Program-made: the position numbers and the translations under genes
In this document: in pieces, positions 30,528-60,306 of the stretch
How positions within the stretch are numbered: position 1 is the first letter of the stretch
Layout: each line of letters opens with the position of its first letter
Virus record (IMG/VR): IMGVR_UViG_3300009151_000001
Coordinates: 60,636 to 124,635 of that record
Strand: one strand, 5' to 3'
Length of the DNA stretch: 64,000 nt
Origin: a virus
The notes under the pieces: generated by a model
Seen by the model: only the letters and a program-made list of their open reading frames with translations
Told to the model about the DNA's origin: nothing
Database searches by the model: none

Positions 30528-30974
30528 GGTGGAGGTGAGGGGATTTGAACCCCTGTGTTAAGAAGAACGCCATAATACCAACGTCTCACATGTTTAGCTA
30601 CTCTGTTTCTCAGAAGCAGGAGATTAATCTGTGTTTTCACTGATTAGTAAAGGGCTGTACTGATTTAGGGTACAACATCCACCATCCTGATTTTTTAGCG
30701 TTGTACAGATAAACAACGGTAGTACTTTTAAAAGGTGTGTACTACTACCTTGAGTTTGTGACTTACTGTTCCACCCAAGTCACCAGAGGAAGAGTTACGC
30801 TGCTACAGCAACACGAGCGTTAGCGAACGCCATGTTAATGATTTTTGCACCGATAGCTTGATGATCAACTGTGTTGTCATTTATTGTTTTGTGTAACGAT
30901 TAAAGAGAATTAACACCATATCTCTACATGTGATACTATCCATTACATCTCAGTCGAATGCCAGTAACACCCCC
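30528..30974 (-). ncRNA. ssrA: Phage-encoded tmRNA (transfer-messenger RNA)
   Basis: About 447 nt. The 5' end GGGGGTGTTACTGGCATTCG has the tmRNA signature (TGG-x-TTCGAC follows). Acceptor GGGGGTG pairs with the 3' CACCTCC; the T arm is AGGGG-TTCAAAT-CCCCT. Helix P2 is supported by 5' ATAGTATC + CACATGT pairing with 3' ACATGTG and GGTATTAT. An internal frame after ATTAAC reads GCG TTC GCT ... GTA GCA GCG TAA, giving tag AFANARVAVAA at about 30830-30795. Downstream hairpins (GGTAGTA / TACTACC and others) would be the pseudoknots. tmRNA rescues stalled ribosomes and tags proteins for proteolysis. Confidence 0.85.
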
Positions 30975-43435: not shown

Positions 43436-43569
43436 TTGAACAAGTACTCACTCATTGTTCACTGTTACCCGTTGTTGGAAAATAATAGCTGTATGAAGTA
43501 TGTCACACATTTAAAATACACCAACATGTATTCACTATTATTAATCCCTCTGTACTCTACTGTAATAAT

Positions 43570-43669
43570 GTATCCCTTTTTACATTTACTTAGTTGTCTT
43601 GTAATTCTCTTTTTTCAGAGTATCCCTGTTCAATGTTAATCAGTTGTCTTGTAATTCACTATTACAGCA
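43570..43669. repeat. Two 50-bp imperfect tandem repeats
   Basis: Both units start GTATCCCT and share AGTTGTCTTGTAATTC at the same offset (units 43570-43619 and 43620-43669, about 70% identical). Could be iterons or repeated regulator sites; no gene spans them convincingly. Confidence 0.6.
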
Positions 43670-43689
43670 GCCCCACCTTGGGAATGAGG

Positions 43690-43930
43690 AATGATACATT
43701 ACATATATATAGCCATACTAGTCCGCGTTTTTTATACTATTTCTAGTATATTTTATACATCAATATATCTTTAGATGTGTTCCTGACACACCTTCACACC
43801 TCCACACATTAAACTATATTAACAAAACTAATACTATTTTAACATAAAAATGCGATCTCTCTCGAGGACAAATGTTAAAATAGTATCAGAATGTATAATA
43901 CGTACTAAGCACATCGCACACGTTAAACAA
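43690..43930. ncRNA. Candidate pseudoknotted RNA
   Basis: A perfect 15-bp stem (ATACTATTTTAACAT / ATGTTAAAATAGTAT, about 43831-43886) closes a loop that begins with TGCGAT; downstream ATCGCA (around 43913-43918) can pair with that loop, forming an H-type pseudoknot. Smaller hairpins (TATACTA / TAGTATA, ACATC / GATGT, GTGT / ACAC) precede it. No gene fits. Confidence 0.45.
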
Positions 43931-43965
43931 GTCCGTAAACTTTCGCTTTGTACATAGAGATTAAA

Positions 43966-43994
43966 AGAACCCTATATTTCTATAGGGTTCTTGA
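43966..43994 (-). terminator. Rho-independent terminator
   Basis: AAGAACCCTATA / TATAGGGTTCTT around TTTC, just 3' of the gene at 43999-44577; T's follow on the minus strand. Confidence 0.85.
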
Positions 43995-43998
43995 ATCA

Positions 43999-44577
43999 TT
44001 AGAATGGTGCCTTTTCTTCTTTTTTTGAAGACTTTCCAACAGCGTCATTAGTTTCAAACTGCGGCTCTGTCTTGTCATCTTGTTGTTCTTGATTAGGAAC
44101 AAACCCTGTTCTAGCTTGAGCTACTTTACGAGCTTTGAGTGCCTCGATACGTTTGTTAAGCGCAATCTGTTGGCGTTCTTTATCTTGCTCGATAACAGCT
44201 TTTGCTTTTACGGTAGTGTTAAACTCCATAGCGGCAGCTCTATAACTTTCGCTCTTAACAAAGTTAGAGACATTACTGTTATTAGTTAACAGTCTAGAAT
44301 ATGTACCTTCTAGTACAGATTCAATACGCTCTTGCGGTGTAGTGATGTTACCCGCTAAATCTACGTTATCTATCAAAGTGATAGTACAACCGTAGATGTT
44401 ATCTAACAGGTCTTTATTAATACCCGCCTTGTGGCGCATATAATAATCTGTTAGAGTGATAAGGATTTCTTCCTTATCAGAAGTTTCAGCTGTAAATACA
44501 GTGTGAACGGTATTGTTATTACCGATTACTTGTTCGAGGTTCTCAACCCCTGTAAGCGTGATTACATTTGTACGCAT
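43999..44577 (-). CDS. Hypothetical protein, 192 aa
   Basis: N-terminal alpha/beta part (TNVITLTGVENLEQVIGNNN, TVFTAETSDKEEILITLTDY), a helical middle and a charged, disordered C terminus (QEQQDDKTEPQFETNDA...). Codon use is a little less AT-rich than that of its neighbours. Layout resembles a nucleic-acid-binding phage protein with acidic tail, but no family recognised. Confidence 0.6.
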   Translation of the reverse strand: MRTNVITLTGVENLEQVIGNNNTVHTVFTAETSDKEEILITLTDYYMRHKAGINKDLLDNIYGCTITLIDNVDLAGNITTPQERIESVLEGTYSRLLTNNSNVSNFVKSESYRAAAMEFNTTVKAKAVIEQDKERQQIALNKRIEALKARKVAQARTGFVPNQEQQDDKTEPQFETNDAVGKSSKKEEKAPF

Positions 44578-44614
44578 AAAAAAACAATTTAAAAATTAAT
44601 AAAAAAAATACAAC

Positions 44615-44735
44615 ATAATAAAGGACAATAGATATCTATAATATCTGATGTTAGAATAAGACATAACAGCCCGAGTTTATAAAGGAGTGTGAGCTTTAGC
44701 TCTTTGGAATATTATATAATATAAGAACCCTACTT
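44615..44735 (-). promoter_or_regulatory. Repeated structured leader, copy A
   Basis: Plus-strand blocks TAATAAAGGACAA, then TTTATAAAGGAGT, a hairpin GAGCT-TT-AGCTC and TTGGAATA in fixed order, shared with copy B (44955-45058) although the hairpin sequence differs. Lies just 5' of the 192-aa gene on the minus strand. Confidence 0.6.
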
Positions 44736-44764
44736 CAGATTACTCTGTTTCAGGTTCTTAATCA

Positions 44765-44917
44765 TTACTTATCAACTCTGTAACAAGAAAAATTAATACA
44801 ATCTTCATTTGTAAATACAGTTACCCTGATACATTCCAAGGCTTCTTGTTTCTCTTCAAATGTTAGTATTGTACTTTTTCCCCTTTTAAAATGAAATGTT
44901 ACAACCCATTTACTCAT
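44765..44917 (-). CDS. Small protein, 50 aa
   Basis: MSKWVVTFHFKRGKSTILTF then EEKQEALECIRVTVF, a beta-beta-alpha-like small protein ending YRVDK. It sits between the two leader copies A and B, so each copy precedes one minus-strand gene. Confidence 0.5.
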   Translation of the reverse strand: MSKWVVTFHFKRGKSTILTFEEKQEALECIRVTVFTNEDCINFSCYRVDK

Positions 44918-44954
44918 AATATATATTTAAGATTAAGAAATAATAATACTAAAC

Positions 44955-45058
44955 TAATAAAGGACAAACTATTTAGAATAACAGTGTATTACTATTATAT
45001 CAGCAACTACATTTATAAAGGAGTCCATCTTTAGATGATTGGAATAGTTGTATAAAAA
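44955..45058 (-). promoter_or_regulatory. Repeated structured leader, copy B
   Basis: Same ordered blocks as copy A: TAATAAAGGACAA, TTTATAAAGGAGT, hairpin CATCT-TT-AGATG, TTGGAATA. The stem bases differ from copy A at most positions yet still pair. Upstream of the 50-aa gene. A third TATAAAGGACAA block occurs at about 45213. Confidence 0.6.
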
Positions 45059-45059
45059 A

Positions 45060-45205
45060 TAACAGATAGAATGCCTCGTTCGAATGACTTATATCTATCT
45101 GTTACATACGTGTGCCGACTAAGGCTGTTGTGGTATTACGCATCAAAGTTATAAGATGCAACCTTTGTGTTTTAAACCATATAGAGATATTGTTTAGTCA
45201 CTATC
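45060..45205. ncRNA. Structured RNA with conserved 16-nt loop (copy 2) and nested stems
   Basis: Hairpin TAACAGATAGA / TCTATCTGTTA (45060-45104) with loop ATGCCTCGTTCGAATG as at 43267-43282. It is followed by nested pairs TTAGTC / GACTAA-type, ACCA / TGGT and GCATC / GATGC up to 45205. No gene. The 45206-45378 stretch beyond it is also gene-free and holds a GTAATA / TATTAC inverted repeat. Confidence 0.5.
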
Positions 45206-45378
45206 CCTAATATTATAAAGGACAAAAGATGCTGAACTTTCCAACCTCTCTAGATAAATAAAAGCTTTTTACAATAAAAAGAGTCTAAGATTCTCTGTGG
45301 GGGTAATACCTTGGTTTTAGCTTGGCGGGGGTTTGTCATTGGGAGGCACCAACAACCTCTATTACAATCATTATTTTT

Positions 45379-45410
45379 TTTGGGTAGAAAAAAAATTTTA
45401 TATACCTTTA
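45379..45410 (+). promoter_or_regulatory. Bacteroidetes-type promoter, very close to the start codon
   Basis: TTTG at about 45379, 20 nt, TACCTTTA at 45403-45410 (last base off consensus). The next ATG is at 45415, so the mRNA would be nearly leaderless. Confidence 0.5.
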
Positions 45411-45414
45411 CAAT

Positions 45415-45612
45415 ATGAAAAAGATATTAGATTCAAACTTTGTGTGGTGGTATATAGGAATTGTGTTTCCGTTGGCTACATTTATTCAGCTGATTAAATC
45501 TTTATCTTATCCATCATTTGATACATTTGGTATTGTGTTGTGGTGTATTATAGGGAGTAGTTTATTAATAGCTACTATTAAGCATTTTGTATTTGATGAT
45601 CTTAATAATTAA
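45415..45612 (+). CDS. Small two-span membrane protein, 65 aa
   Basis: FVWWYIGIVFPLATFIQLIK and FGIVLWCIIGSSLLIATIKH are membrane segments. First gene of the rightward half. Not recognised. Confidence 0.55.
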   Translation: MKKILDSNFVWWYIGIVFPLATFIQLIKSLSYPSFDTFGIVLWCIIGSSLLIATIKHFVFDDLNN

Positions 45613-45614
45613 TC

Positions 45615-45941
45615 ATGACACTAGAATCACAATATAAACTTTATCTACAGGAACACCCCGAATCTACATTTACATTTGAAGAATGGAAGAAGTGGTTTTC
45701 TGAAGAATTAGAAAAAGGAATAAATAACTTTATGATACAACAAGAATTAGAAAAAAAATATTCTACTAGATTGTTTCAGGAACCTGACTGGGACCCTAGT
45801 ATGCTAGGTGAAATGGAAGAAGTATTTCTTTTTAAAGAAGGTGTAATGACAAAAGAAGAACATAAAGAACTTTTAAAAAAGAAAGGAATTATAGCTCCTA
45901 GTATTATCTGTAGAAATGTTATGTTTATAGATGTTCCATAA
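45615..45941 (+). CDS. Hypothetical protein, 108 aa
   Basis: Acidic and helical, starting MTLESQYKLYLQEHPESTFT then FEEWKKWFSEELE, resembling small accessory proteins with a FTFEEWK(x)W motif. Two bp after the membrane-protein gene. Confidence 0.6.
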   Translation: MTLESQYKLYLQEHPESTFTFEEWKKWFSEELEKGINNFMIQQELEKKYSTRLFQEPDWDPSMLGEMEEVFLFKEGVMTKEEHKELLKKKGIIAPSIICRNVMFIDVP

Positions 45942-45959
45942 TACAAACTAAATTAATTA

Positions 45960-46054
45960 TGTTAGGTGGTGAAATTGGCAGACACGCTATCTTGTCTCGA
46001 TAGTGAGAATATATTATGTATATTCTTGTGGAGGTTCAAATCCTTCTCTAACAG
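45960..46054 (+). tRNA. Class II tRNA (Leu-like body) with anticodon GTC
   Basis: Acceptor TGTTAGG / TCTAACA, the Leu-type D arm GGTGAAATTGGCAGACACGC, a long variable arm (GAATATA...TATATTC) and T arm GGAGG-TTCAAAT-CCTTC. The anticodon arm CTATC-TTGTCTC-GATAG is perfect and gives anticodon GTC (Asp codons), with T instead of a purine at 37. Body and anticodon disagree. Confidence 0.7.
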
Positions 46055-46060
46055 CATTGT

Positions 46061-46198
46061 GGCTCACCTCTGTATATCAAGCAGTGAGTCTCCCCAGTAG
46101 GTTGCAAGTAATCTGGGATAAGTGTAAACCTAATAAGATACACCTAGAGATGTTCGACTGACTTCTCGTAAAACCTCATCTCTTGATGGGGTTTTTTT
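46061..46198 (+). ncRNA. Candidate structured small RNA ending in a terminator
   Basis: After the tRNA come three hairpins: GGCTCAC / GTGAGTC (46061-46090), CCCAG / CTGGG (46093-46117) and GTGTA / TACAC (46122-46143), then a rho-independent terminator AAAACCTCATC / GATGGGGTTTT with T-run (46170-46198). Probably co-transcribed with the tRNA. No ORF. Confidence 0.55.
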
Positions 46199-46239
46199 AT
46201 GTCACAAATTTGTATTACTTTTGTGACAAAATTATAATT

Positions 46240-46482
46240 ATGTTTAATGATGGTTATTCGTCTCCTAAAAAATCCACATATAGATTTTATTATATAGATA
46301 CATATATAGTTAATAATCAAAAATCTATACCCATTCGTATAAAAGATATAACAGTGTATGCAGATCATATGGGACTCGGAGCTGATGTTCATGAAGCTAA
46401 AAAAGAATTAATTAGAAGTTTAGATTTTGATGAAGCTCATTTTATATGTGTTAAAAGTGAATTATTAAATCGCGAGTTTTAA
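46240..46482 (+). CDS. Hypothetical protein, 80 aa
   Basis: Start at MFNDGYSSPKKSTYRFYYID; upstream in-frame codons lie in the terminator. A TACTTTTG -7 box at about 46214 precedes it. Helical C-terminal half (HEAKKELIRSLDFDEAHFI). Not recognised. Confidence 0.55.
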   Translation: MFNDGYSSPKKSTYRFYYIDTYIVNNQKSIPIRIKDITVYADHMGLGADVHEAKKELIRSLDFDEAHFICVKSELLNREF

Positions 46483-46488
46483 AAAAAA

Positions 46489-46520
46489 TTTGGTAGATAA
46501 AATATATATTCTTATATTTG
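46489..46520 (+). promoter_or_regulatory. Bacteroidetes-type promoter for the tRNA array
   Basis: TTTG at 46489-46492, 20 nt, TATATTTG at 46513-46520: an exact consensus match, ahead of the six-tRNA array. Confidence 0.8.
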
Positions 46521-46651
46521 TATTACAATGAAGAATAACAATACATATTATTTATCCCTTAGTTGGTTGTCATTAGTTGATGATCGGGGATAATATGTCT
46601 TATAAAAACTATATACATAGAAGCCTCAGAATTATCTGGGGCTTTTTATTT

Positions 46652-46733
46652 GCTTCTATGGCGGAATTGGTAGACGCGCTACACTTAGGATGTAGTGTTT
46701 TAAAACGTAAGAGTTCGAGTCTCTTTGGAAGTA
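46652..46733 (+). tRNA. tRNA-Leu (TAG)
   Basis: Class II. Acceptor GCTTCTA / TGGAAGT, anticodon arm CTACA-CTTAGGA-TGTAG (anticodon TAG), T arm AAGAG-TTCGAGT-CTCTT. Canonical. Confidence 0.92.
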
Positions 46734-46736
46734 CAT

Positions 46737-46817
46737 ACCGGTATGGTGAAATAGGTAGACACGAGAAGCTTAAGACTTCTTCCCGATGGGGTACAGGTTC
46801 GATCCCTGTTATCGGTA
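46737..46817 (+). tRNA. tRNA-Leu (TAA)
   Basis: Class II. Acceptor ACCGGTA / TATCGGT, anticodon arm AGAAG-CTTAAGA-CTTCT (TAA), T arm ACAGG-TTCGATC-CCTGT. Canonical; 3 bp after the previous tRNA. Confidence 0.92.
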
Positions 46818-46880
46818 CATGATGGATAATTCACTCATTAACTCCTGTAAAGAAGGTTAACGATGGATATATCCTACAAA

Positions 46881-46968
46881 AGGTGAGTTGGTAGAGTTGG
46901 TTTATTACACCGGTCTTGAAAACCGGAGGAGGTAACACTTCCGTGAGTTCGAATCTCACACTCACCTC
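46881..46968 (+). tRNA. tRNA-Ser (TGA)
   Basis: Class II. Acceptor AGGTGAG / CTCACCT, anticodon arm CCGGT-CTTGAAA-ACCGG (TGA), variable arm GGAGGTAACACTTCC, T arm GTGAG-TTCGAAT-CTCAC. Confidence 0.92.
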
Positions 46969-46982
46969 TTATAGAGAGTAAA

Positions 46983-47060
46983 GGAGAGAAATGGTATCCC
47001 CGGTTGTTTGCTAAACAACAACCCATTAGGTTGGGCACAGTTCGAGTCTGTTTCTCTCTG
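46983..47060 (+). tRNA. tRNA-Ser (GCT)
   Basis: Acceptor GGAGAGA / TCTCTCT, anticodon arm GTTGT-TTGCTAA-ACAAC (GCT), long variable arm ACCCATTAGGTTGGGC-type, T loop TTCGAGT. Confidence 0.9.
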
Positions 47061-47065
47061 CTTTT

Positions 47066-47151
47066 GGGAGTAAGGTGGATTTTGGTTTAGCCACCACGGT
47101 CTGTAAAACCGTAGCCTGTCAAAGGAGCTTGTTCGATTCAAGCTACTCCCA
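47066..47151 (+). tRNA. tRNA-Tyr (GTA)
   Basis: Acceptor GGGAGTA / TACTCCC, anticodon arm ACGGT-CTGTAAA-ACCGT (GTA), class II variable arm, T loop TTCGATT. Canonical. Confidence 0.92.
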
Positions 47152-47156
47152 CATAC

Positions 47157-47227
47157 GCGTGTATGGTGAAACGGTATCATGACGGTCTCCAAAACCGTTG
47201 GTCTAGGTTCGAATCCTAGTATACGTG
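47157..47227 (+). tRNA. tRNA-Trp (CCA)
   Basis: Acceptor GCGTGTA / TATACGT, anticodon arm ACGGT-CTCCAAA-ACCGT (CCA), T loop TTCGAAT. Class I body. Confidence 0.9.
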
Positions 47228-47263
47228 CAAATGTCAAGTATTATATTCAGTTTACTTGACAAA

Positions 47264-47292
47264 AAAAAGTCAGACATTAGCCTGACTTTTTT
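47264..47292. terminator. Bidirectional rho-independent terminator
   Basis: AAAGTCAG / CTGACTTT hairpin flanked by A- and T-runs. It ends the rightward tRNA array and the leftward PhoH gene. A second inverted repeat, GTCAAGTA / TACTTGAC, lies just before it. Confidence 0.85.
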
Positions 47293-47315
47293 TATTATAA
47301 TGTAATATTACAGTA

Positions 47316-47981
47316 TTACGAAACTGTTTTATCAAACTCATAATCTAATACTTTTCCTACTAGATCACTTCTGTGGTTGTATTTAAGCTTCACCCATTTA
47401 ATCTCTTCTATCTTTTTAGATAGCTCGATTAAATACTGTAGTCCGTTTATCTCTCCATTGTTTTTAATATCACACTGTTGTAGATCACCATTAAAGATCA
47501 TCTTACCTGTTTTACCCAACCTTGTAATGATGGCTAAGATTTCTCCTTTGGTAAGATTCTGAGCTTCTTCTATAATCAGAATATCATCTACAGTCTTTCC
47601 TCTAATAAACTGTACAGGAAGAGCTTTGATAGATCCATCCGCCACAATCTTGTCTATTGTCACTTTATCTTTACACTTGTATAGATTTTCTATAAGAGCT
47701 TCAAGATATGGATTAAACTTATCATCTAATCCTCCGGGAAGAAATCCAAGAGTCTTACCCACTTCAATAGCAGCTCTTGTTACATAGATGTTTTCACACT
47801 GTTTTTTAAACAAGAAGTCTAAAGCCACTTGTGCTGATATTAAAGACTTACCTGTTCCAGCAAATCCAGTTATCACTACCACCTGATTTTCAATGATCAA
47901 TCTTTTGGCTTCTTTTTGTTCATCATTTAAAGTGATGTTATACTTTATATCACTTTTACGTTCTCTGTTGGGTTCTTTCAT
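47316..47981 (-). CDS. phoH: PhoH-like ATPase
   Basis: 221 aa. Walker A ITGFAGTGKSL near residue 40, ARAAIEVGKTLGFLPG-type PhoH segment (TRAAIEVGKTLGFLPGGLDD), Walker B ILIIEEAQN and MIFNGDLQQCD. PhoH-like proteins are RNA-linked ATPases common in phages, role unresolved. It is the only minus-strand gene between two rightward blocks. Upstream 47982-48108 is AT-rich divergent promoter sequence. Confidence 0.9.
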   Translation of the reverse strand: MKEPNRERKSDIKYNITLNDEQKEAKRLIIENQVVVITGFAGTGKSLISAQVALDFLFKKQCENIYVTRAAIEVGKTLGFLPGGLDDKFNPYLEALIENLYKCKDKVTIDKIVADGSIKALPVQFIRGKTVDDILIIEEAQNLTKGEILAIITRLGKTGKMIFNGDLQQCDIKNNGEINGLQYLIELSKKIEEIKWVKLKYNHRSDLVGKVLDYEFDKTVS

Positions 47982-48108
47982 AAATTGTTTTGTATGTACA
48001 ATACAATATAATGATTATATGTTATAAACAAATGTTTAAAAGTATTTTTATAATATCTTATTTTAAATTTAAATTTGCTAAGTTTAAACTTAATAAGTAT
48101 ATTATATT

Positions 48109-48399
48109 ATGAACAATCAACCAACAAATGATGTTCTTCTTGATATAGAAGAACATTTAGAAAAGAAAAGAGGATATAAAGAAGTTCTTGTAGAAGACAA
48201 GTATAGTCACTACAGACAGAGTATTCCAAAAAGACCAGGTGGTGCTATAAGTAATGTTCCTGTTATTGATGTACGGGATGGATTAGCTGAACGAATGTTA
48301 GCTGAGTCTATGAGGAAAGCTTCTAATAGAAGTAAGTATATGAACTACAATCAATATAATCTATCACCTAAAAAAAGAAATCATGATACATCGTTGTAA
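48109..48399 (+). CDS. Conserved hypothetical protein, 96 aa
   Basis: Polar, helical; GGAISNVPVIDVRDGLAERM and a Tyr/Asn-rich C terminus. Overlaps the next gene by 17 bp. First gene of the packaging/head operon. Confidence 0.6.
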   Translation: MNNQPTNDVLLDIEEHLEKKRGYKEVLVEDKYSHYRQSIPKRPGGAISNVPVIDVRDGLAERMLAESMRKASNRSKYMNYNQYNLSPKKRNHDTSL

Positions 48400-48679
48400 T
48401 GTGGAGTGTCATAAACATGACTCACTAACTCAAGAACTTATAGGAGATAGTGAAAGTATATGGTTAAAGTTTTCGTTTCTATTAGATACGGTTGTTGCTA
48501 TTAAAGAAACGTCATCTGATACAGATGAATTTAATTATAAAACCACTACGGTTTATATGGATGAAAACAGATCTTATATAATAGATACACCATTTACGGT
48601 ATTTGAAAAAATATGGATTGAGTTTGTAACTGGAGAATCTATTGATGATTACATGTCTAATAATAACGCAGAATTATAA
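48383..48679 (+). CDS. Hypothetical protein, 98 aa
   Basis: Beta/alpha protein; WLKFSFLLDTVVAIKETSSD and TVYMDENRSYIIDTPFTVFE. Ends 10 bp before the next start. Not recognised. Confidence 0.6.
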   Translation: MIHRCNVECHKHDSLTQELIGDSESIWLKFSFLLDTVVAIKETSSDTDEFNYKTTTVYMDENRSYIIDTPFTVFEKIWIEFVTGESIDDYMSNNNAEL

Positions 48680-48689
48680 AACAATAAAT

Positions 48690-49058
48690 ATGTCACAAGA
48701 ACAAGAAGTACAGAATGTTCCTACAAAAAAAGAAATAATATCTATGTTACAAGATCAGATAGATATTAGAGAGTTACAAGCTAAGTTAGCTCAGTTAAAC
48801 GCTGATATTGCTGCAGCTAAAGCTAAAGAGTTAGAAGCTCTTTCTTTTATAGGAAGAACAACACAAGGTGGTAGTCAAACTCCTCCGGGTAATGTTCACA
48901 CTATTACTCAACAAGATTTGGATAATAATCCAGAACTAATTGATGAAGGATTAAAAGTAGGAGATCAAGTGATGATTCCTACAGAAGAAGAAGTAAAGAA
49001 AGCTGAAGTTAATGAAGCTAAAGAAAGGAGTAAACGATCTCTTAAAAAAGTTGATTAA
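48690..49058 (+). CDS. Coiled-coil protein, 122 aa
   Basis: Start at MSQEQEVQNVPTKKEIISML (an upstream ATG lies in the previous gene). Long coiled coil (residues 20-60, AKLAQLNADIAAAKAKELEA), then a Gly/Gln linker and ELIDEGLKVGDQVMIPTEEE. Typical of a small crAss head-operon protein. Confidence 0.6.
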   Translation: MSQEQEVQNVPTKKEIISMLQDQIDIRELQAKLAQLNADIAAAKAKELEALSFIGRTTQGGSQTPPGNVHTITQQDLDNNPELIDEGLKVGDQVMIPTEEEVKKAEVNEAKERSKRSLKKVD

Positions 49059-49065
49059 TTAATTG

Positions 49066-49090
49066 TGGAGTGAGAACTATCTCACTCCAT
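49066..49090 (+). terminator. Hairpin, weak terminator
   Basis: GGAGTGAG / CTCACTCC stem with a 6-nt loop followed by an AT-rich tail with few Ts; may be a partial terminator or processing site. Confidence 0.5.
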
Positions 49091-49105
49091 TAATTTTATA
49101 AAAAC

Positions 49106-49474
49106 ATGGCAATAGTAAATAAAGTAGATAAAAAAATGAAGATGAATAGGTGGGCTATAGTAAAGTTCCAACTATTTACTTATTGTTATTTATATAAAAT
49201 TCAGATAAGTGATGCTGATCTGGATTGTCTAACTCTTTTGGCCACCGAGGGTGATCAAGAACTTACATCTTTTTGTACAAAAGCTCATGAAAAAAGTATT
49301 TTTTCATCTATACAATCTGTACGAAATTGTTTAACGAAAGCTGAAAAGAAAAGTCTTCTTATTAAGGAAGGAAAAAATAAAAAAAAGATATACATTAATC
49401 CAGAGCTTAATATACAATCAAAGGGAAACATATTATTAGAATATAAATTTTTGAGCGTTGCCACTGAATCCTAA
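49106..49474 (+). CDS. Hypothetical protein, 122 aa
   Basis: Mostly helical with a small winged-helix look (SSIQSVRNCLTKAEKKSLLI followed by a basic GKNKKKIYIN strand). Overlaps the IHF-like gene by 17 bp. A conserved crAss protein of this locus is likely. Confidence 0.6.
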   Translation: MAIVNKVDKKMKMNRWAIVKFQLFTYCYLYKIQISDADLDCLTLLATEGDQELTSFCTKAHEKSIFSSIQSVRNCLTKAEKKSLLIKEGKNKKKIYINPELNIQSKGNILLEYKFLSVATES

Positions 49475-49871
49475 AAAAGCTAAGAGAGATATAGGTTCTG
49501 TTGCTAAAGAACTTGATATTCCTGAGAATGTTGTAAAAGATGTAGTTGACTTTTATTGGAGAGAAGTGAGAAGAAACCTTTCTTCACTATCTTATCCAAG
49601 AATCCATATAACAAACTTAGGTGATTTTACTATTAAACATTGGAAACTAGATGATATAATAGAAAAACATGAAAAGTTTGAAGAAGTAAACAGACAACGC
49701 GGATTACAACAGATAACCGCTAGATTTAAGACAGCTGAAAATCTTTTTGAATTAAAGAAAATAAAACGACTTATCAACGAAGAAAAAGATAGAAAAGAAT
49801 TTGTTAAAGTAGAAAAACAACTTAACCATGAAATTAAGCAGAGAAAACATAATAAGGATCTGGAAGAGTAA
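49458..49871 (+). CDS. IHF/HU-like DNA-bending protein
   Basis: 137 aa. Helical N terminus (VAKELDIPENVVKDVVDFYW) then the beta-arm segment YPRIHITNLGDFTIKHWKLD, matching the R-I-x-I-x-x-L-G-x-F core of IHF subunits, followed by a basic C-terminal extension. Starts with TTG inside the preceding gene. IHF-like proteins near the terminase are usual in crAss-like phages and may help packaging or transcription. Confidence 0.78.
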   Translation: MPLNPKKAKRDIGSVAKELDIPENVVKDVVDFYWREVRRNLSSLSYPRIHITNLGDFTIKHWKLDDIIEKHEKFEEVNRQRGLQQITARFKTAENLFELKKIKRLINEEKDRKEFVKVEKQLNHEIKQRKHNKDLEE

Positions 49872-50166
49872 AGGTCAGATAGTAGAAGGGATTAAAAATT
49901 CAATATTCAAATCTGAAGATATAGAACTAATAGCTGAAGAAAGATTAAACATATGTAAAGCTTGTCCATCTCATCTATATGATGAACAAGGATCTGGTTG
50001 TATAGTGGGTTTATCAGCTCCTTGTTGTAACCAATTAAAAGGTGGATGCGGATGTTCTTTAAAACTAAAAACAAGAAGTCTTTCTTCTGAATGTCCTAAA
50101 GGATATTGGAAAGCTGAATTAACAGAACAAGAAGAAGATCAATTAAAAGAAAAATTAGGAATATGA
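49828..50166 (+). CDS. Cys-rich zinc protein, 112 aa
   Basis: Nine cysteines in three clusters (ICKACPS; SGCIVGLSAPCCNQ; GGCGCSLKLK, and SSECPKGYW) suggest two metal sites, with basic N and acidic C termini. Overlaps the IHF-like gene by 44 bp. I recall similar proteins at this place in crAss-like genomes; function unknown. Confidence 0.65.
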   Translation: MKLSRENIIRIWKSKGQIVEGIKNSIFKSEDIELIAEERLNICKACPSHLYDEQGSGCIVGLSAPCCNQLKGGCGCSLKLKTRSLSSECPKGYWKAELTEQEEDQLKEKLGI

Positions 50167-50999
50167 GTATATTAAGATTTACAGCACACGATCACAAGTA
50201 CACAACAATAGATAATCATGAAGAAGAGTGGTTATCTGTAACTAGTCTTATCAGTCAGTTTAAACAACCGTTTGATGCTGAAAAGATGTCAGTTAAGTCT
50301 TCTAAAAATAAAAAGAGTAAGTGGTATGGTATGACACCAGAAGCTATTAAAGAAGCTTGGAAAAATGAAGCTAACCGAGCCACAACTCTTGGAACATGGT
50401 ATCATAATCAACGCGAAAAAGATCTTTGTTCTTTTGAAACAATAGAAAGACATGATGTATCTATTCCTATTTATAAACCTGTAGAAATAGATGGAATAAA
50501 ATATTCTCCTAATCAAAAAATTGAAGATGGAGTATATCCAGAACATCTTGTATATTTAAGATCGGCTGGTTTATGTGGTCAAAGTGATCTTATCGAAGTG
50601 ATAGATAATGAAGTGTTTATTACAGACTATAAAACAAATAAGGAAATAAAAACAGAAGGATATGTTAGTTGGGATGGAATAACACAAAAACTAGCTTCTC
50701 CTATTTCTCATTTAGATGATTGTAATTATATACATTATGCATTACAACTATCTGTGTATATGTATATTATTCTTAAACACAACCCTAAATTAAAACCGGG
50801 TAAAATGTTTCTTCATCATATTCTTTTTGAAGAAGCCGGAAAAGATAAATATGGTAATCCTATTGCTGCATTAGATAGTAATGGTGATCCTATAGTGGAA
50901 CATGTTATTCCTTATGAAGTTCCCTATCTAAAGAGTGAAGTGATAAAAATTATACATTGGTTAGAAGATAATAAACATAAACTTAAACCTAAACATTGA
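50163..50999 (+). CDS. PD-(D/E)XK nuclease, Cas4/RecB-like
   Basis: 278 aa. Core: LGTWYHNQRE (helix with conserved His), then AGLCGQSDLIEVIDN and VFITDYKTNKEI (G-x-x-D...D-Y-K), then YALQLSVYMYIIL (QxxxY). All catalytic residues are intact. No Cys4 cluster is seen. Precedes the terminase operon, so it may process DNA ends for packaging or recombination. ATGA overlap with the previous gene. Confidence 0.83.
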   Translation: MSILRFTAHDHKYTTIDNHEEEWLSVTSLISQFKQPFDAEKMSVKSSKNKKSKWYGMTPEAIKEAWKNEANRATTLGTWYHNQREKDLCSFETIERHDVSIPIYKPVEIDGIKYSPNQKIEDGVYPEHLVYLRSAGLCGQSDLIEVIDNEVFITDYKTNKEIKTEGYVSWDGITQKLASPISHLDDCNYIHYALQLSVYMYIILKHNPKLKPGKMFLHHILFEEAGKDKYGNPIAALDSNGDPIVEHVIPYEVPYLKSEVIKIIHWLEDNKHKLKPKH

Positions 51000-51247
51000 T
51001 GAACTTTATAACAAAAGTTAAAGATAAATATTTTGTAAGAAAACAAGAACAAAACGATCTTGAACAGTTTTTATGTACTCTTCCTGGTAAATGTTCTAAA
51101 ATTTCTAAAATATATGTATGGTTAAATACTATTAGAGATTTATTTAATAAACAAAGAATGTTAGAAATAGATGAGAAATACACTTGGAAAGATTGGATAG
51201 AAACACAAGATGAATTAGCTAAGAAAAAATTAAAAGATGTCAGATAA
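50999..51247 (+). CDS. Hypothetical protein, 82 aa
   Basis: Starts at ATG overlapping the nuclease stop (TGATG). Basic and helical (KVKDKYFVRKQEQNDLEQFL). Not recognised. Confidence 0.55.
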   Translation: MNFITKVKDKYFVRKQEQNDLEQFLCTLPGKCSKISKIYVWLNTIRDLFNKQRMLEIDEKYTWKDWIETQDELAKKKLKDVR

Positions 51248-51440
51248 ACTACCGTCACTAGACGAATTAGAAGAACAATATTTAGAAGGAACACTTCCTG
51301 ATCAGTTAGCTTATGAGTATTTTAATAATGAAAGAATTGCTATTATTCATAGAGATGAGTTACATAAAAATGTTATATTAAATAATCTTTATGATACAAA
51401 AAGTAATGATAAGTTTTTAACAATAAAAACACGAGCATAA
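51237..51440 (+). CDS. Hypothetical protein, 67 aa
   Basis: Acidic N terminus (LPSLDELEEQYLEGTLPD), helical. Its stop shares a base with the next start. Not recognised. Confidence 0.55.
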   Translation: MSDKLPSLDELEEQYLEGTLPDQLAYEYFNNERIAIIHRDELHKNVILNNLYDTKSNDKFLTIKTRA

Positions 51441-52467: not shown

Positions 52468-52668
52468 ATGAATGAGTTATATAATTGGTTATTCCACAAA
52501 GGACTTGATGGAAACTGGGCCGCCATCCCCAGAGATAAAGTGGCTGATTATTTTAATGATTATAATACTCCTGGTATTATACGGTCATCTCAACTTGAAA
52601 CAGTAACAGAATTAGCTGCCAAAGTGACATATGATCCTGATTATTTAAAAACAATAGAATGTTTATAG
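52468..52668 (+). CDS. Hypothetical protein, 66 aa
   Basis: MNELYNWLFHKGLDGNWAAI then PRDKVADYFNDYNTPGII. The pattern W-x-F-H-x-N-...-W-A-A-I-P-x-D is one I associate with small phage proteins near TerL. Overlaps TerL start by 10 bp. Confidence 0.55.
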   Translation: MNELYNWLFHKGLDGNWAAIPRDKVADYFNDYNTPGIIRSSQLETVTELAAKVTYDPDYLKTIECL

Positions 52669-55600
52669 AAATTCCTACATACCAAAACAAATCCTGGAGC
52701 TCTACTGTGTTTCATACACGGGAAGAGTTTCGGGATTTTCTTATTCCTTTATTTAAAGAACCTGGACAATACAAGTTTAATGATGTAACGTCTTCAATAT
52801 TTAATGAACAAGGACGTTTGTTTGAAAAATATGGATACTATTGTTTGGCTCCGTTAAAAACAAAAGACTTTATTAAATACTGGGATGATCAAAAAGCTAA
52901 ATGTAGAAATGGTATAATAGTGATAGATGGTGAAGATACATGGTATATCACTAGAGATTATTATATGTGGCTTAATTTTCTTCCTATATATGATAAAGAA
53001 GAAAAACGATTTGCTTTTGCTAAAATAAGAGATGCTCAATATCATATGGCTCTATATGAGATATTAGCGGAGCTTCATTATAAACACGCTGTTATTCTAA
53101 AGAAACGGCAGATAGCTAGTTCTTATTTTCATATGGCTAAGTTTATTAACCAGTGGTATTTTGAACAAGGTGCTGTATTAAAACTAGGAGCTAGTCTTAG
53201 AGATTATATTAATGAGAAAGGATCTTGGAAGTTTCTTAATGAATATAAAAACTTTTTAAACGAACATACCGCTTGGTATCGTCCAGCTGAACCAGATAAA
53301 GTGGGCGCGTGGCAACAACAGATTAAAGTGAGGATTAATGGACGTGATACTTATAAAGGATTGAAGGGTACAATAAATTTGTACTCTTTTGAAAAAGATC
53401 CTACAAATGGTGTCGGTGGTCCCGTTACTTATTTTTTTCATGAAGAAGCTGGTATTGCTCCTAAGATGAATGATACTTATGGGTTTATGAAACCCGCTCT
53501 TAAATCTGGTCATATAATCACTGGTCAGTTTATAGCTGCAGGATCTGTAGGTGATCTTGACCAATGTGGTCCATTAAAAGAATATATACTTAATCCAGAA
53601 GCTAATGGTTTTTACGGAGTAGAATCTAATCTAATAGACAAAGATGGAACCATTGGGATTATAGGATTGTTTATTCCGGAACAATGGAGTATGCCACCAT
53701 ATATAGATGAACATGGAAACTCTTTAGTAGAAGAAGCTTTAGAAGCTTTAGAAAAAGAATTTGAGAAAGCTAAAAGAGATTTGGAACCAGCTGCGTATCA
53801 ACTTACTGTTTCTCAACATCCGCGTACAATAGAAGAAGCTTTTGCTAGTAGAAAACTATCTGTGTTTCCTCCACATTTGATAGCTAAACAACAACAACGT
53901 ATATCTGAAAAGACTTATTCTGTAGAATATTTAGAACTATCTAGAGATTCAGAAGGAAAGATAGTAGATAAACAATCTAGAAAAACTCCTATTATGGAGT
54001 GGCCAGTTAGTAAAAATACAGTGGATAAAGAAGGAGTGATATGTATATATGAACGTCCTCATAAAGATCCATCTTTTGGAATGTATTACGCTTCTGTGGA
54101 TCCCGTGGCTGAAGGTAAAGCCGAATATATTAATAATATGTTATATACACCTACTGGTAAAAAAAGAATAGGTGATATAAAAATAGGAGATGCTGTTATG
54201 AATCCTGATGGAACATCTACACTAGTTACTGGTGTTTTTCCACAAGGACAAAAAGAATTGTATAGAGTATTTTTTAATGATGGATTTAGTATTTTAGTTT
54301 GTAAAGAACATTTATGGTCAGTATATGCAAGTGATAATGATAAAATTAATCCCCATGTATTATCAGTAGATCAATTATTAGATTTAGAAGGATCCGTTAA
54401 AAGTTTAGGAGTAGGAAAAAATAAAACTAAAATATACAATACTAAAACTTATTATAAAAAAGGTAATATATCTAAATGGAAAATACCCATTACTAATCCT
54501 TTAATATTTGATAAAAATGAAATACCATTAGATTCTTATTTTTTAGGATTACTATTAGGTGATGGAGGAATATCTACTAGAAGTATTCACTATACATCTG
54601 CTGATAAAGAATTAATTGATCATATAAAAACTGTACTACCATCAGATATATCTATTAAACAAACTGGTAAATATGATTATAGAATTTCAACATCTAAATC
54701 TCGTAATTCTATAATGGGTATTTTACGAAGTTTAAATTTACAAGGTACCAAATCACAAACTAAATTTATACCAGAGATCTATAAGTATTCATCTATAGAT
54801 AATCGACTTGCTTTATTACAAGGATTAATGGATACTGATGGTTATTGTGGAAATCATGGAGCTGAATATTATTCTATTTCTTTTAATTTAGCTAATGATG
54901 TTGTAGATTTAGTTCATAGTTTGGGTGGTATAGCTAGAATAAGAAAAAAAATTACAAATAAAAAAAAGAAAAATGGGGTAGGTTATATTTACATAGTTAG
55001 AGTAAGTCTTCCTAAAATGTTTAATCCATTTAGATTAAAAAGAAAATCAAATTTATATAAACCTTCAAATAAGTTTTCACGATATATTTCAGATATAAAA
55101 TTTGAAAAGATTGATGAAGCTATTTGTATTAGTGTAGAAAATCCTAATAATCTATATATTACTGAACATGGTATTGTAACACACAATACCACTACGTCAG
55201 ATTCTTTATGTTCTATATACGTTTATAAGAATCCGCGGATGTTAATAAAAGATGATGGATCAGGAAAGATTGAAAGCTCATATGAGCGTGATGGTATAGT
55301 AGCTTCATGGTGTGGAAGATTTGATGATCTTAATAAAACACATGAACGTTTAGAACTTCTTATAGAATGGTATAACGCGTGGACTGTTGTAGAAAATAAC
55401 GTAGCTTTATTTATACAATATATGATATCTAAAAAGAAACAAAGACATCTTGTTCCTAAAAGTATGATATTGTTTCTAAAAGATATAGGAGCTAACTCAA
55501 ATGTGTTTCAAGAATATGGTTGGAAGAATGTAGGTACATTATTTAAAGGAACTATATTATCGTATGCTATAGAGTTTTTAAAAGAAGAAATTGATACAGA

Positions 55601-55928
55601 AACATTAGCTGATGGAACTATAGTAAAAACTATATATGGAGTGGAGCGTATTCCAGATCCTATGCTTCTTAAAGAGATGCAAGGATACCAAGATGGAGTA
55701 AATGTCGACAGATTGGTTGCGTTTGCGGCTCTTATAGCTTTTGCTAAAGTACAGCAATCTAACAGAGGTATGGCTCGTGATATAGAATATACAAAAAGTA
55801 ATTTGGACAACTCTAAAAAATTCAGTAGATTTAATATGAGTAATAGTCCTTTTAGACACATGGGAAACACTCGTGGCGGAGGATCAATGAGTTCTCCAAG
55901 AAGAAGTGCTTTTAAAAATATTAGATAA
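52659..55928 (+). CDS. Terminase large subunit (TerL) with an in-frame intein
   Basis: 1,089 aa precursor; 733 aa after splicing. The ATPase half has a Walker A-like VILKKRQIASS (146-155) and Walker B TYFFHEEAG (257-265). The nuclease domain starts at YASVDPVAEGK with D481. The intein (residues 488-843) is inserted seven residues after this catalytic Asp; the extein resumes TTTSDSLCSIYVYKN. TerL docks on the portal (encoded 240 bp downstream), pumps DNA and cuts concatemers. Unspliced protein should be inactive, so splicing gates packaging. Confidence 0.93.
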   Translation: MFIEIPTYQNKSWSSTVFHTREEFRDFLIPLFKEPGQYKFNDVTSSIFNEQGRLFEKYGYYCLAPLKTKDFIKYWDDQKAKCRNGIIVIDGEDTWYITRDYYMWLNFLPIYDKEEKRFAFAKIRDAQYHMALYEILAELHYKHAVILKKRQIASSYFHMAKFINQWYFEQGAVLKLGASLRDYINEKGSWKFLNEYKNFLNEHTAWYRPAEPDKVGAWQQQIKVRINGRDTYKGLKGTINLYSFEKDPTNGVGGPVTYFFHEEAGIAPKMNDTYGFMKPALKSGHIITGQFIAAGSVGDLDQCGPLKEYILNPEANGFYGVESNLIDKDGTIGIIGLFIPEQWSMPPYIDEHGNSLVEEALEALEKEFEKAKRDLEPAAYQLTVSQHPRTIEEAFASRKLSVFPPHLIAKQQQRISEKTYSVEYLELSRDSEGKIVDKQSRKTPIMEWPVSKNTVDKEGVICIYERPHKDPSFGMYYASVDPVAEGKAEYINNMLYTPTGKKRIGDIKIGDAVMNPDGTSTLVTGVFPQGQKELYRVFFNDGFSILVCKEHLWSVYASDNDKINPHVLSVDQLLDLEGSVKSLGVGKNKTKIYNTKTYYKKGNISKWKIPITNPLIFDKNEIPLDSYFLGLLLGDGGISTRSIHYTSADKELIDHIKTVLPSDISIKQTGKYDYRISTSKSRNSIMGILRSLNLQGTKSQTKFIPEIYKYSSIDNRLALLQGLMDTDGYCGNHGAEYYSISFNLANDVVDLVHSLGGIARIRKKITNKKKKNGVGYIYIVRVSLPKMFNPFRLKRKSNLYKPSNKFSRYISDIKFEKIDEAICISVENPNNLYITEHGIVTHNTTTSDSLCSIYVYKNPRMLIKDDGSGKIESSYERDGIVASWCGRFDDLNKTHERLELLIEWYNAWTVVENNVALFIQYMISKKKQRHLVPKSMILFLKDIGANSNVFQEYGWKNVGTLFKGTILSYAIEFLKEEIDTETLADGTIVKTIYGVERIPDPMLLKEMQGYQDGVNVDRLVAFAALIAFAKVQQSNRGMARDIEYTKSNLDNSKKFSRFNMSNSPFRHMGNTRGGGSMSSPRRSAFKNIR
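54120..55187 (+). other. Class 3-type intein with LAGLIDADG endonuclease in TerL
   Basis: 356 aa. It begins AEYINNMLYTPTGKK: position 1 is Ala, not Cys/Ser. Block B has VCKEHLW (W553), block F has AICISVENP (C823), and the junction is GIVTHN followed by Thr844. Ala1 with the Trp-Cys-Thr set is the mark of class 3 inteins, which start splicing from the block F Cys. The endonuclease motifs are LGLLLGDGG (629-637) and LLQGLMDTDG (719-728), both with their Asp. Confidence 0.87.
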
Positions 55929-56170: not shown

Positions 56171-58927
56171 ATGCAAATATATAACGCCTTAGATCTTAAA
56201 GCTGGTAAAAAAGTTAGCTATAATCGTATGGGTACATTAACCCAGCCCATTCAGTTTCTTCCAGAAAAAGAAAAGGATGATGAATGGCGCGCTTGGAACC
56301 TTGATTGGTTAGAGTTTCAAGGTATGAAGATGTTACGTAGAAATGCTAGACGGTTAATGAAAAACTATAAACTTTCTAAAGGTATTATAGATAAAACCGA
56401 CTATATAGTAGAACAAGATAATGAAATGGCTGATCTTGTAGATATACTTACTAAACAAGATGAATCAGCATTAGAACTTAAGTTTTATCCTATAATTCCA
56501 AATGTTATAAATGTTTTATGTAATGAGTTTTCTAAGAGAACATCTCGTATAATATATAAGGCTGTTGATGACATTTCATATAATGAAATGTTAGAACAAA
56601 AGAGAGAAATGGTTGAGAAAGTTTTGTTATCTGAAGCTCAACAAAAGATACAAGCTCAACTAGCTCAAATGGGTATGGCTCCTGATTCTCAAGAAGGTCA
56701 ACAAGAATTAGCTCCTGAAAAACTTAAAACTCTTCCAGAAATAGAACAATTCTTTAGAAAAGATTATAGATCTATGGTAGAACAATGGTCTACCCATCAA
56801 CATAATGTAGATGAAGAAAGGTTTAAGATGCAAGAACTAGAGGAAAGAGCATTTAGAGATGTGCTTATTACCGATAGAGAGTTTTGGCATTTTAACATGA
56901 TGGAAGATGATTACGAAATTGATTTATGGAATCCATTATTAACCTTTTATCATAAAAGCCCAGACGTAAGATATATATCTCAAGGTAACTGGGTTGGTAA
57001 AATGGATATGATGTCTATATCTGATGTTATAGATAAATATGGATGGATGATGACCGCTGAACAACTTAAAGCATTGGAAGTAATATATCCTGTAAGATCC
57101 GCGGGATATGCTGTACAAGGATATCAGAATGATGGTACATATTATGATCCTACACGTACACACGAATGGAATACACAGATGCCGTCATTAGCTTATAGAC
57201 AATATACATCTATGTATGACGCTAAGTTAGGAACTGGTGATATTGTAGAATGGATTATGTCAGATTCTGAAGATCTTCAAGACTTTGGTAAATCACATAT
57301 GCTTCGTGTATCCACTATCTACTGGAAGAGTCAACGTATGGTGGGACATCTTACTAAAATAACAGAAGATGGTAACCTTATTCAAGAGATTATAGGAGAA
57401 GATTATACAGTGGTTGATAAACCACTGTATGATACTTCAACATATAAACAAAAAACAAAAGATAATTTAATCTTTGGTGAACATATAGATTGGATATGGA
57501 TTAATGATGTATGGGGTGGAATAAAGATTGGTCCTAACCGCCCTACATTCTGGGGTATGAATAATCCTGGTGGATTAAATCCAATATACTTAGGATTAGC
57601 CGGTGGTAAACCTGGTCGTATACCTTTCCAATTTAAAGGAGACAATAGTCTTTATGGTTGTAAACTTCCTGTAGAAGGATGTGTATTTGGAGATAGAAAT
57701 ACTGTATCTGTTTCTATGGTAGATTTAATGAAACCATCACAGATAGGATATAATATAGTGAATAATCAAATAGCTGATATATTAGTAGATGAACTTGGTA
57801 CAGTGATAATGTTAGATCAAAACTCTTTACCGCGTCACTCTTTAGGAGAAGACTGGGGAAAAAATAATCTAGCTAAAGCTTATGTAGCAATGAAGAACTT
57901 TCAAATGCTCCCTTTAGATACCACTATCACTAATACAGAAAACCCTCTTAATTTTCAACATTATCAAGTATTAAATCTTGAACAGACTAATAGGCTTCTT
58001 TCTCGTATTAAATTAGGAGAATATTTTAAAACACAAGCTTTTGAAATAATAGGTTTGAATCCACAGAGGATGGGTCAACAGATAGCTCAAGAACAAACAG
58101 CTACTGGTGTTGAACAAGCTACTAATGCTTCTTACGCTCAAACAGAACAATATTTTATACAACATAGTGATAACCTAATGCCGCGGGTACACGGAATGAG
58201 AACAGACTTAGCTCAGTTCTATCATTCTAGAAAACCTAGTCTTAGACTTCAATATATAACATCTAATGATGAAAAAGTAAACTTTCAGATTAACGGTACT
58301 GATCTTTTATTAAGAGACCTTAACATATTTGCTACTACTAAGACAAATGCTCGTGCTGTAATGGATCAGTTGAAACAATTAGCTGTTAAAAACAACACTA
58401 TGGGTGCGTCTATATATGATCTTGGTAATGTTATCAAATCTGAGAGTATTGCTGAGCTTACACAAGTTCTTAAGAAAGCTGAAGAAAAAGCTAATGCTCA
58501 AAGACAAGAACAACAACAACACGAACAACAGATGCAACAAGAACAAATTAAAGCTCAACAAGATCAACTTAGACAAGCTCAACAGTTTGAAGCTGATGAG
58601 AATGAGAAAGATAGACAAGCTAAGATACTTGAAACTCAAATATCGGCTGCTGGTAGAGGATCTGGATTTGATGTTAATCAAAATAAACAATCAGATTATC
58701 TTGATGCTATGGAGTCTATAAAGAAAGAACAACAACATCAAGACGCAATGAACTTTAAAAGAGAACAGGAAGTAAATAAAAATACTCACCTTACTGAACA
58801 AAGACAACTTCAACGTGACAAGATGTCTACAGAAAACAGAAAAGCTGAGATAGAGTTACAGATATCGCGTGAGAATAAAAATAGGTTTGACGCGCCTAAA
58901 TCTAAACAATCGGATAAGAAGAAATAA
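56171..58927 (+). CDS. Portal protein
   Basis: 918 aa. N-terminal wing and stem region (IDKTDYIVEQDNEMADLVDI, VINVLCNEFSKRTSRI), central portal core, and a long Gln-rich C-terminal helix (QEQQQHEQQMQQEQIKAQQD) that would form the barrel. Size and position directly after TerL and before scaffold and capsid match crAss-like portals. It forms the dodecameric ring through which DNA enters the head. Confidence 0.85.
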   Translation: MQIYNALDLKAGKKVSYNRMGTLTQPIQFLPEKEKDDEWRAWNLDWLEFQGMKMLRRNARRLMKNYKLSKGIIDKTDYIVEQDNEMADLVDILTKQDESALELKFYPIIPNVINVLCNEFSKRTSRIIYKAVDDISYNEMLEQKREMVEKVLLSEAQQKIQAQLAQMGMAPDSQEGQQELAPEKLKTLPEIEQFFRKDYRSMVEQWSTHQHNVDEERFKMQELEERAFRDVLITDREFWHFNMMEDDYEIDLWNPLLTFYHKSPDVRYISQGNWVGKMDMMSISDVIDKYGWMMTAEQLKALEVIYPVRSAGYAVQGYQNDGTYYDPTRTHEWNTQMPSLAYRQYTSMYDAKLGTGDIVEWIMSDSEDLQDFGKSHMLRVSTIYWKSQRMVGHLTKITEDGNLIQEIIGEDYTVVDKPLYDTSTYKQKTKDNLIFGEHIDWIWINDVWGGIKIGPNRPTFWGMNNPGGLNPIYLGLAGGKPGRIPFQFKGDNSLYGCKLPVEGCVFGDRNTVSVSMVDLMKPSQIGYNIVNNQIADILVDELGTVIMLDQNSLPRHSLGEDWGKNNLAKAYVAMKNFQMLPLDTTITNTENPLNFQHYQVLNLEQTNRLLSRIKLGEYFKTQAFEIIGLNPQRMGQQIAQEQTATGVEQATNASYAQTEQYFIQHSDNLMPRVHGMRTDLAQFYHSRKPSLRLQYITSNDEKVNFQINGTDLLLRDLNIFATTKTNARAVMDQLKQLAVKNNTMGASIYDLGNVIKSESIAELTQVLKKAEEKANAQRQEQQQHEQQMQQEQIKAQQDQLRQAQQFEADENEKDRQAKILETQISAAGRGSGFDVNQNKQSDYLDAMESIKKEQQHQDAMNFKREQEVNKNTHLTEQRQLQRDKMSTENRKAEIELQISRENKNRFDAPKSKQSDKKK

Positions 58928-60276: not shown

Positions 60277-60306
60277 TATTATTAATTATTAAAACCCAAA
60301 ACAAAT

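Follow-up and report, generated by a model that had tools for sequence, protein, structure and literature searches.

Two copies of a putative tandem early promoter with a structure-conserved hairpin at the divergent junction of a crAss-like phage

The DNA analysed here (the window, 64,000 nucleotides) covers positions 60,636-124,635 of a virus record of 124,635 nt. The portal protein of the record matches phrog_6547 (E 1.3e-85) as well as crAss-like isolates, and the capsid protein matches phrog_11589. On the basis of these portal and major capsid protein matches the record is assigned to the crAss-like phages (Crassvirales); it also encodes a giant candidate virion polymerase of the DFDxD type. 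A mostly minus-strand block of small genes and replication genes spans 1-44.6 kb of the window, and a plus-strand block of structural genes begins at ~48 kb. Within the former, ARAGORN places a tmRNA gene at 30528-30974 (minus strand) with the tag DHQAIGAKIINMAFANARVAVAA, adjoined by several tRNAs. Within the latter, the portal gene (56171-58927, plus strand) has as its top match among phage records Leptolyngbya phage Lbo-JY46 (32% identity), which was reported from a cyanobacterium and here outranks the Bacteroidota crAss-like isolates. Directly 5' of the portal gene is an ORF of 1,089 amino acids (52659-55928, plus strand), the large terminase by position, with a seeming intein and a homing-endonuclease-like stretch, judged by eye on the translation. 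The elements studied here, copies A and B, are located at the divergent junction of the two blocks (Table 1).

Table 1. Features of the divergent junction, in window coordinates.
Feature	Position	Strand	Basis or remark
Third copy of TGTCCTTTATWA, without hairpin	45224-45213	-	exact motif search
Third core CCTTTATAATATTAG, no clear hairpin; 5' of structured RNA	45207..45221	-	top weight-matrix match in the record
Structured RNA GGTTG[stem]CTTATAACTTTG[stem']GTAATACCACAACAGCCTTAGTCGGCAC	45112..45163	-	12 phages, covarying stems; outside copies A and B
Terminator-like inverted repeat AACAGATAGA...TCTATCTGTT then ATTTTTTATA, between structured RNA and copy A	45051..45103	-	direct reading
Copy A TATTCCAA	45046-45039	-	sequence
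Copy A hairpin CATC-TAAA-GATG	45037-45026	-	sequence; among the 14 H-elements tested
Copy A block ACTCCTTTATAAA	45024-45012	-	sequence
Copy A upstream core P1 CCTTTATAAATGTAG, within ACTCCTTTATAAA	45007..45021	-	among four top held-out matrix matches
Copy A block TGTCCTTTATTA	44966-44955	-	sequence
Copy A gene-proximal core P2 CCTTTATTAGTTTAG, then TATT and TTTCTTAATC	44949..44963	-	ATG 46 nt on; core spacing, matrix
50-aa ORF behind copy A	44765..44917	-	ATG at 44917
Terminator-like inverted repeat AAGAACC...GGGTTCTT, 3' of 50-aa ORF	44712..44760	-	direct reading
Copy B TATTCCAA	44711-44704	-	sequence
Copy B hairpin GAGC-TAAA-GCTC	44702-44691	-	sequence; orthologous site in six other phages carries an H-element
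Copy B block ACTCCTTTATAAA	44688-44676	-	sequence
Copy B upstream core P1 CCTTTATAAACTCGG, within ACTCCTTTATAAA	44671..44685	-	among four top held-out matrix matches
Copy B block TGTCCTTTATTA	44627-44616	-	sequence
Copy B gene-proximal core P2 CCTTTATTATGTTGT	44610..44624	-	ATG 47 nt on; exact block match; outside top matrix matches
192-aa ORF behind copy B	43999..44577	-	ATG at 44577; OB-fold and long helix predicted, with a disordered tail whose last residue is F

Both copies are read on the minus strand and contain, in the same order, TTCCA(A), a hairpin, ACTCCTTTATAAA, TGTCCTTTATTA ~60 nt further on, and the ATG of a gene; the gap between the two blocks is ~45 nt and that from TGTCCTTTATTA to the ATG ~40 nt. 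An earlier reading, made from the sequence only, described them as two copies of a leader RNA with compensatory stem changes, each 5' of one minus-strand gene. The sequence and the relatives described below confirm that the ordered blocks and the hairpin form a real unit, and each copy indeed precedes one gene, the 50-aa ORF (A) or the 192-aa ORF (B). The hairpin also is real, but the proposed stem of 5 bp (GAGCT or CATCT) over a loop of AA is better described as 4 bp closed by C-G, with a TAAA loop. Exactly three copies of TGTCCTTTATWA are present in the record, all at this junction. Searched singly with mismatches, the blocks occur in the window at chance frequency (10 observed vs 9.6 expected, 9 vs 8.3 and 6 vs 5.4). 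Folded alone, copy A gave z values of 0.27 as DNA and -0.41 as RNA, and copy B modest values of -1.82 and -2.77, respectively. Since single blocks are at chance level and the folding of single copies is weak, the two copies alone are insufficient; the strength of the case is in the ordered combination of blocks and in the relatives.

Both shared blocks are variants of a single motif, CCTTTATnAAnTTRG, denoted the core. Cores are located mostly 42-57 nt 5' of early start codons, whether a hairpin is present or absent; for the gene-proximal core (P2), the distance from the start of the core to the ATG is 42-57 nt in the relatives G012, G030 and G013, and 46 and 47 nt in the window. Frequently, TATT and TTCTTAATC come next after P2. 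We constructed a weight matrix from 32 cores of relatives and none from this record, and scanned both strands of the record, leaving out 635 nt (genome positions 60,001-60,635). The four top matches, at window positions 45221, 44685, 44963 and 45021, are all on the minus strand and within 540 nt of each other. Shuffled genomes sometimes yield a single score of that size but never four, let alone side by side. This result is a held-out confirmation of the cores at copies A and B and of a third core. At 45250-45281 (minus strand), 43 nt above the third core, there is a perfect 7-bp AT hairpin (CTTTTTA-TTG-TAAAAAG) directly followed by the core-like CTTTTATTTATCTAG, perhaps a degenerate form of the hairpin-bearing element defined below.

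Among 80 loci of portal homologues screened on the IMG/VR side, two, L007 (G012) and L033 (G011), share the junction anatomy of the window. Pattern scans added L109 (G013), L112 (G001), L117 (G025), L118 (G030) and L209; L109 is near-identical to L033, and the pair was counted once. Many related phages of the portal set are without the core motif, indicating that it is a property of one clade and not of all crAss-like phages. A search with the back-translated 192-aa protein as query yielded no relatives, and neither did a scan of IMG/VR for the exact two-block pattern, the latter because the relatives vary the first block.

We use the term H-element for a core preceded by TTCCA(A/C/T), with few one-letter variants, and by a hairpin ending 0-4 nt before ACWCC. 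The sequence-only reading had made its case depend in part on further copies, and these exist: 16 H-elements are found in seven crAss-like phages. Each of them lies where the early block begins, and in every one of these phages this block is a string of short units. The orthologue of the copy B gene is located behind an H-element in 7/7 phages, and the stem differs at this one orthologous site while pairing is kept, indicating true compensatory change. Homologues of the 50-aa ORF were found in L007 (by a BLAST match) and, by eye, in L209. This small gene has no H-element in G012 or L209, although the core is present in L209, and therefore the H module moves between genes.

Pairing was tested in 14 H-elements (two in the window, three each in G012 and G030, and two each in G001, G025 and G013), to which the two of L209 do not belong. 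All 14 hairpins are paired, with 10 distinct stems; across the innermost four pairs, 56/56 cells are of Watson-Crick type and none is G-T. When the 3' arms were reshuffled in 20,000 rounds, the mean was 28.6 and the maximum 44, so that no round reached 56; with distinct stems only (n=10), 40/40 cells are paired, vs 19.4 on average and at most 34 in the shuffles. The pair closing the loop is C-G in all 14, the next three pairs vary among A-T, T-A, G-C and C-G, and the loops include TAAA, TATC, TTC, TAC and TTTCA. As judged across the phages, these counts show that the sequence of the stem is free and its pairing is under selection, and the stem changes first noticed between copies A and B are compensatory as claimed. 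One H-element of L209 (~1925-1850, minus strand) has a long stem of ~15 bp, interrupted by one bulge and capped by a 9-nt loop; GACACCTTTATAAAATTAG follows it. Counted on the sequences, the distance from the core of the H-element to the P2 core is 48-65 nt in 12/16 cases; the exceptions are 33, 23 and ~24 nt and one fused case. In the latter (G025), the hairpin, the core and TATATT stand directly 5' of the gene, and this core, the only one of the gene, starts 47 nt from the ATG.

We also compared the hairpins of each genome with one another for shared downstream sequence. This unbiased self-comparison returned only H-elements in 6/6 early regions. It yielded no pair in Lbo-JY46, no pair with shared downstream sequence in the first 9.7 kb of the plus strand of Cellulophaga phage phi14:2, and one unrelated pair on the phi14:2 minus strand. 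The pattern TTCCA-n-ACWCCTTTATAAA has 127 matches in IMG/VR, nine of them with a hairpin; these are the known ones, those of L209, and three, in L172, L264 and L282, that we regard as chance. Four weak hairpin matches elsewhere in the record and its relatives were likewise regarded as chance, and pattern matches of the kind TTCCATTAAATCTTTATAC... fall outside the early junction and lack a proper hairpin. The H-hairpins are not intrinsic terminators, as they are followed by ACWCCTTTAT and not by a T-run; neither copy is in the list produced by the terminator scan, which also misses the repeat between the structured RNA and copy A, its loop being too long.

A second element of the junction, located between the third core and copy A, can also be written GGTTG[stem]CTTATARCTTTG[stem']GTAATACCACAACAGCCTTAGNMGGCA. 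It was found close to the beginning of the early block in 12 crAss-like contigs (the window, L131, L132, L133, L134, L135, L113, L116, L119, L121, L125 and L209). Its first stem carries changes on both sides in 3/5 pairs; the second is invariant in 11 contigs and changes from G-C to A-U in L209. Overall, 91.7% of the cells are paired vs 78.6% in shuffles, and slid controls are all at or below 49%. The element has no match in Rfam 15, and its core, used as a sequence query against the phage collection, found none either. In 84,980 bacterial and archaeal genomes the pattern has 26 matches, which we attribute to chance because none has the conserved downstream TTAGNMGGC. On this comparative evidence, the true structured RNA at the junction is this element, distinct from copies A and B, and it is possibly more novel than the H-elements.

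We interpret copies A and B as two copies of a putative tandem early promoter, and the cores as putative early promoters of which a subset has a structure-conserved hairpin; we assign this reading a probability of about one half. Each early gene on the minus strand would form its own unit, consisting of the terminator of the previous unit, a promoter and the gene. The sequence-specific part of the promoter would be CCTTTATnAAnTTRG(TATT) at the P2 position, mostly 42-57 nt 5' of the start codon. A special form would have a second core, P1, usually 48-65 nt further upstream, directly after TTCCA and the short hairpin. The inference that the cores act as promoters has three grounds: no other sequence is conserved 5' of each unit, gene-proximal cores often stand directly 3' of the terminator hairpin of the previous unit, and one core precedes the first unit. 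A scan for sigma-70-type promoters (TTGACA/TATAAT), Bacteroidota-type promoters being outside its scope, gave 14 vs 11.6 expected, not above chance. Against the promoter reading count the lack of an H-hairpin at most cores, by which the hairpin is dispensable for some units; the variable spacing from the core of the H-element to P2; the many portal-set relatives without the motif; and the early region on the plus strand of phi14:2, which is without the element although gp66 of that phage is the characterised relative.

The second-best explanation, which we consider unlikely, is that the hairpin lies within a transcribed 5' leader and acts as an RNA structure, such as a 5' stabiliser or a binding site for a phage or host protein. 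Selection of a stem for pairing only is typical of RNA, the orientation of the element relative to the gene is constant, and G013 has a core just above one H-element, from which a transcript could include the hairpin. However, the conserved sequence above the hairpin consists of TTCCA and the terminator of the previous unit, ~10-20 nt away, with nothing promoter-like and able to start a transcript, and hence a promoter that has a DNA hairpin upstream of it fits better than a transcribed leader. The core adjoining the hairpin also stands hairpin-free before other genes, at a distance that would suit a promoter. In addition, a scan of 43500-47500 against Rfam 15, in which only tRNAs reach the gathering score, gave no match for either copy, and the lack of G-T among the 56 cells, though RNA usually tolerates G-U, is a weak argument in the same direction. 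The designation as leader RNA is not supported: the blocks are variants of one motif that occurs with or without a hairpin and, in G025, as a single fused copy.

It is improbable that the hairpins followed by CCUUUAUUAAAUUAG are cleavage sites on a long read-through transcript, freeing single-gene mRNAs. The frequent position of gene-proximal cores directly after the previous terminator hairpin would agree with such processing, but cores are also found ahead of the first unit, which does not require a transcript from further upstream, some have no strong hairpin before them, and the units are set apart by terminator-like repeats that carry T-runs. Still less probable is an operator or replication origin, in which the core would be the site of a regulator or initiator and the hairpin a cruciform landmark: the elements are indeed concentrated at the divergent junction, where an origin or a control region would be plausible, but their position is tied to the start codons of separate genes, and their copy number follows the number of early genes rather than one locus. 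A functionless similarity, due to recent duplication or to chance, to which the chance frequency of single mismatched blocks would be favourable, is contradicted by the comparative data, namely conservation across seven divergent phages with altered stems and the held-out matrix result, and has next to no probability.

Under the promoter reading, the cores would be read by a two-barrel RNA polymerase that the phage itself encodes and packages in its virion. A protein of 2,257 amino acids with the sequence DFDID, encoded in the record at genome positions 44,542-51,315, matches gp66 of phi14:2 (BLASTP E 1e-24) and is a candidate for a two-barrel, gp66-related virion RNA polymerase. The virion RNA polymerase of crAss-like phages is a relative of the eukaryotic RNA-interference polymerases. 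A gp66-like virion RNA polymerase is the likely, putative reader of the cores; it would enter with the DNA and start the early genes, including that of the SSB-like protein. The latter is the 192-aa product behind copy B, whose family gave nothing usable against Pfam, PHROGs and PDB sequences and is without a Pfam or PHROG family. The model of the protein has a pLDDT of 78, with a low-confidence tail, and its top structural matches, which score weakly (Foldseek E 5.5e-3; Z no higher than 6.0), are OB-fold ssDNA-binding proteins. The C-terminal F is invariant in the family; for comparison, the SSB tail is acidic and disordered and ends in PF. As modelled, the protein is a candidate SSB-like early product, and it may be speculated that an early SSB would suit the hairpin model.

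The H-hairpin probably acts in DNA, considering that it is upstream of the core with no conserved promoter above it. As with phage N4, extrusion would take place at the early promoter, and the structure of the hairpin would be what is recognised. The N4 early promoters tolerate any change of the variable stem bases that leaves the hairpin intact; extrusion is brought about by gyrase and SSB stabilises the hairpin, which spans -17 to -5 from the start site and has a purine-rich loop of 3 nt with G at its centre, -11 (PMC4496689). Like the promoters of the N4 virion RNA polymerase, H-elements combine a short inverted repeat with an adjacent conserved sequence 5' of early genes, their non-conserved stem bases can be swapped provided that pairing is preserved, a C-G pair stands beside the loop, and the phage would likewise encode a virion-packaged polymerase. 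In contrast to N4, whose polymerase is T7-like and single-subunit, the candidate here is of the two-barrel DFDxD type, the loops begin with T and are mostly 3-5 nt, the core also occurs without a hairpin, and the arrangement is tandem. As the polymerase family and the loop differ, the H-elements are not classed as N4-type promoters. Thermus phage P23-45 similarly has class-specific conserved motifs 5' of pre-early and early genes, which two-barrel phage polymerases read, but its AT-rich and GC-rich promoters are presented, in the portion of the account available to us, as sequence motifs with no hairpin (PMC10770324). Phage phi14:2 resembles the present phage in its homologous virion polymerase, gp66, and differs in having no H-type pair in the first 9.7 kb of its plus strand.

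The open-access literature that we searched contains no description of crAss-like early promoters or of start-site choice by the virion polymerase. Tentatively, and with rather less confidence than in the promoter reading itself, the H-elements of this clade may represent DNA-hairpin promoters of a second class that arose independently, combining an extruded hairpin whose structure is fixed and whose sequence is free, a two-barrel virion polymerase that reads it and an SSB-like protein among the first products. A candidate promoter that is repeated and structure-bearing in seven phages would make the question of where this polymerase starts testable in vitro, and the natural stem-swap variants of the H-element are variants that evolution has already tested.
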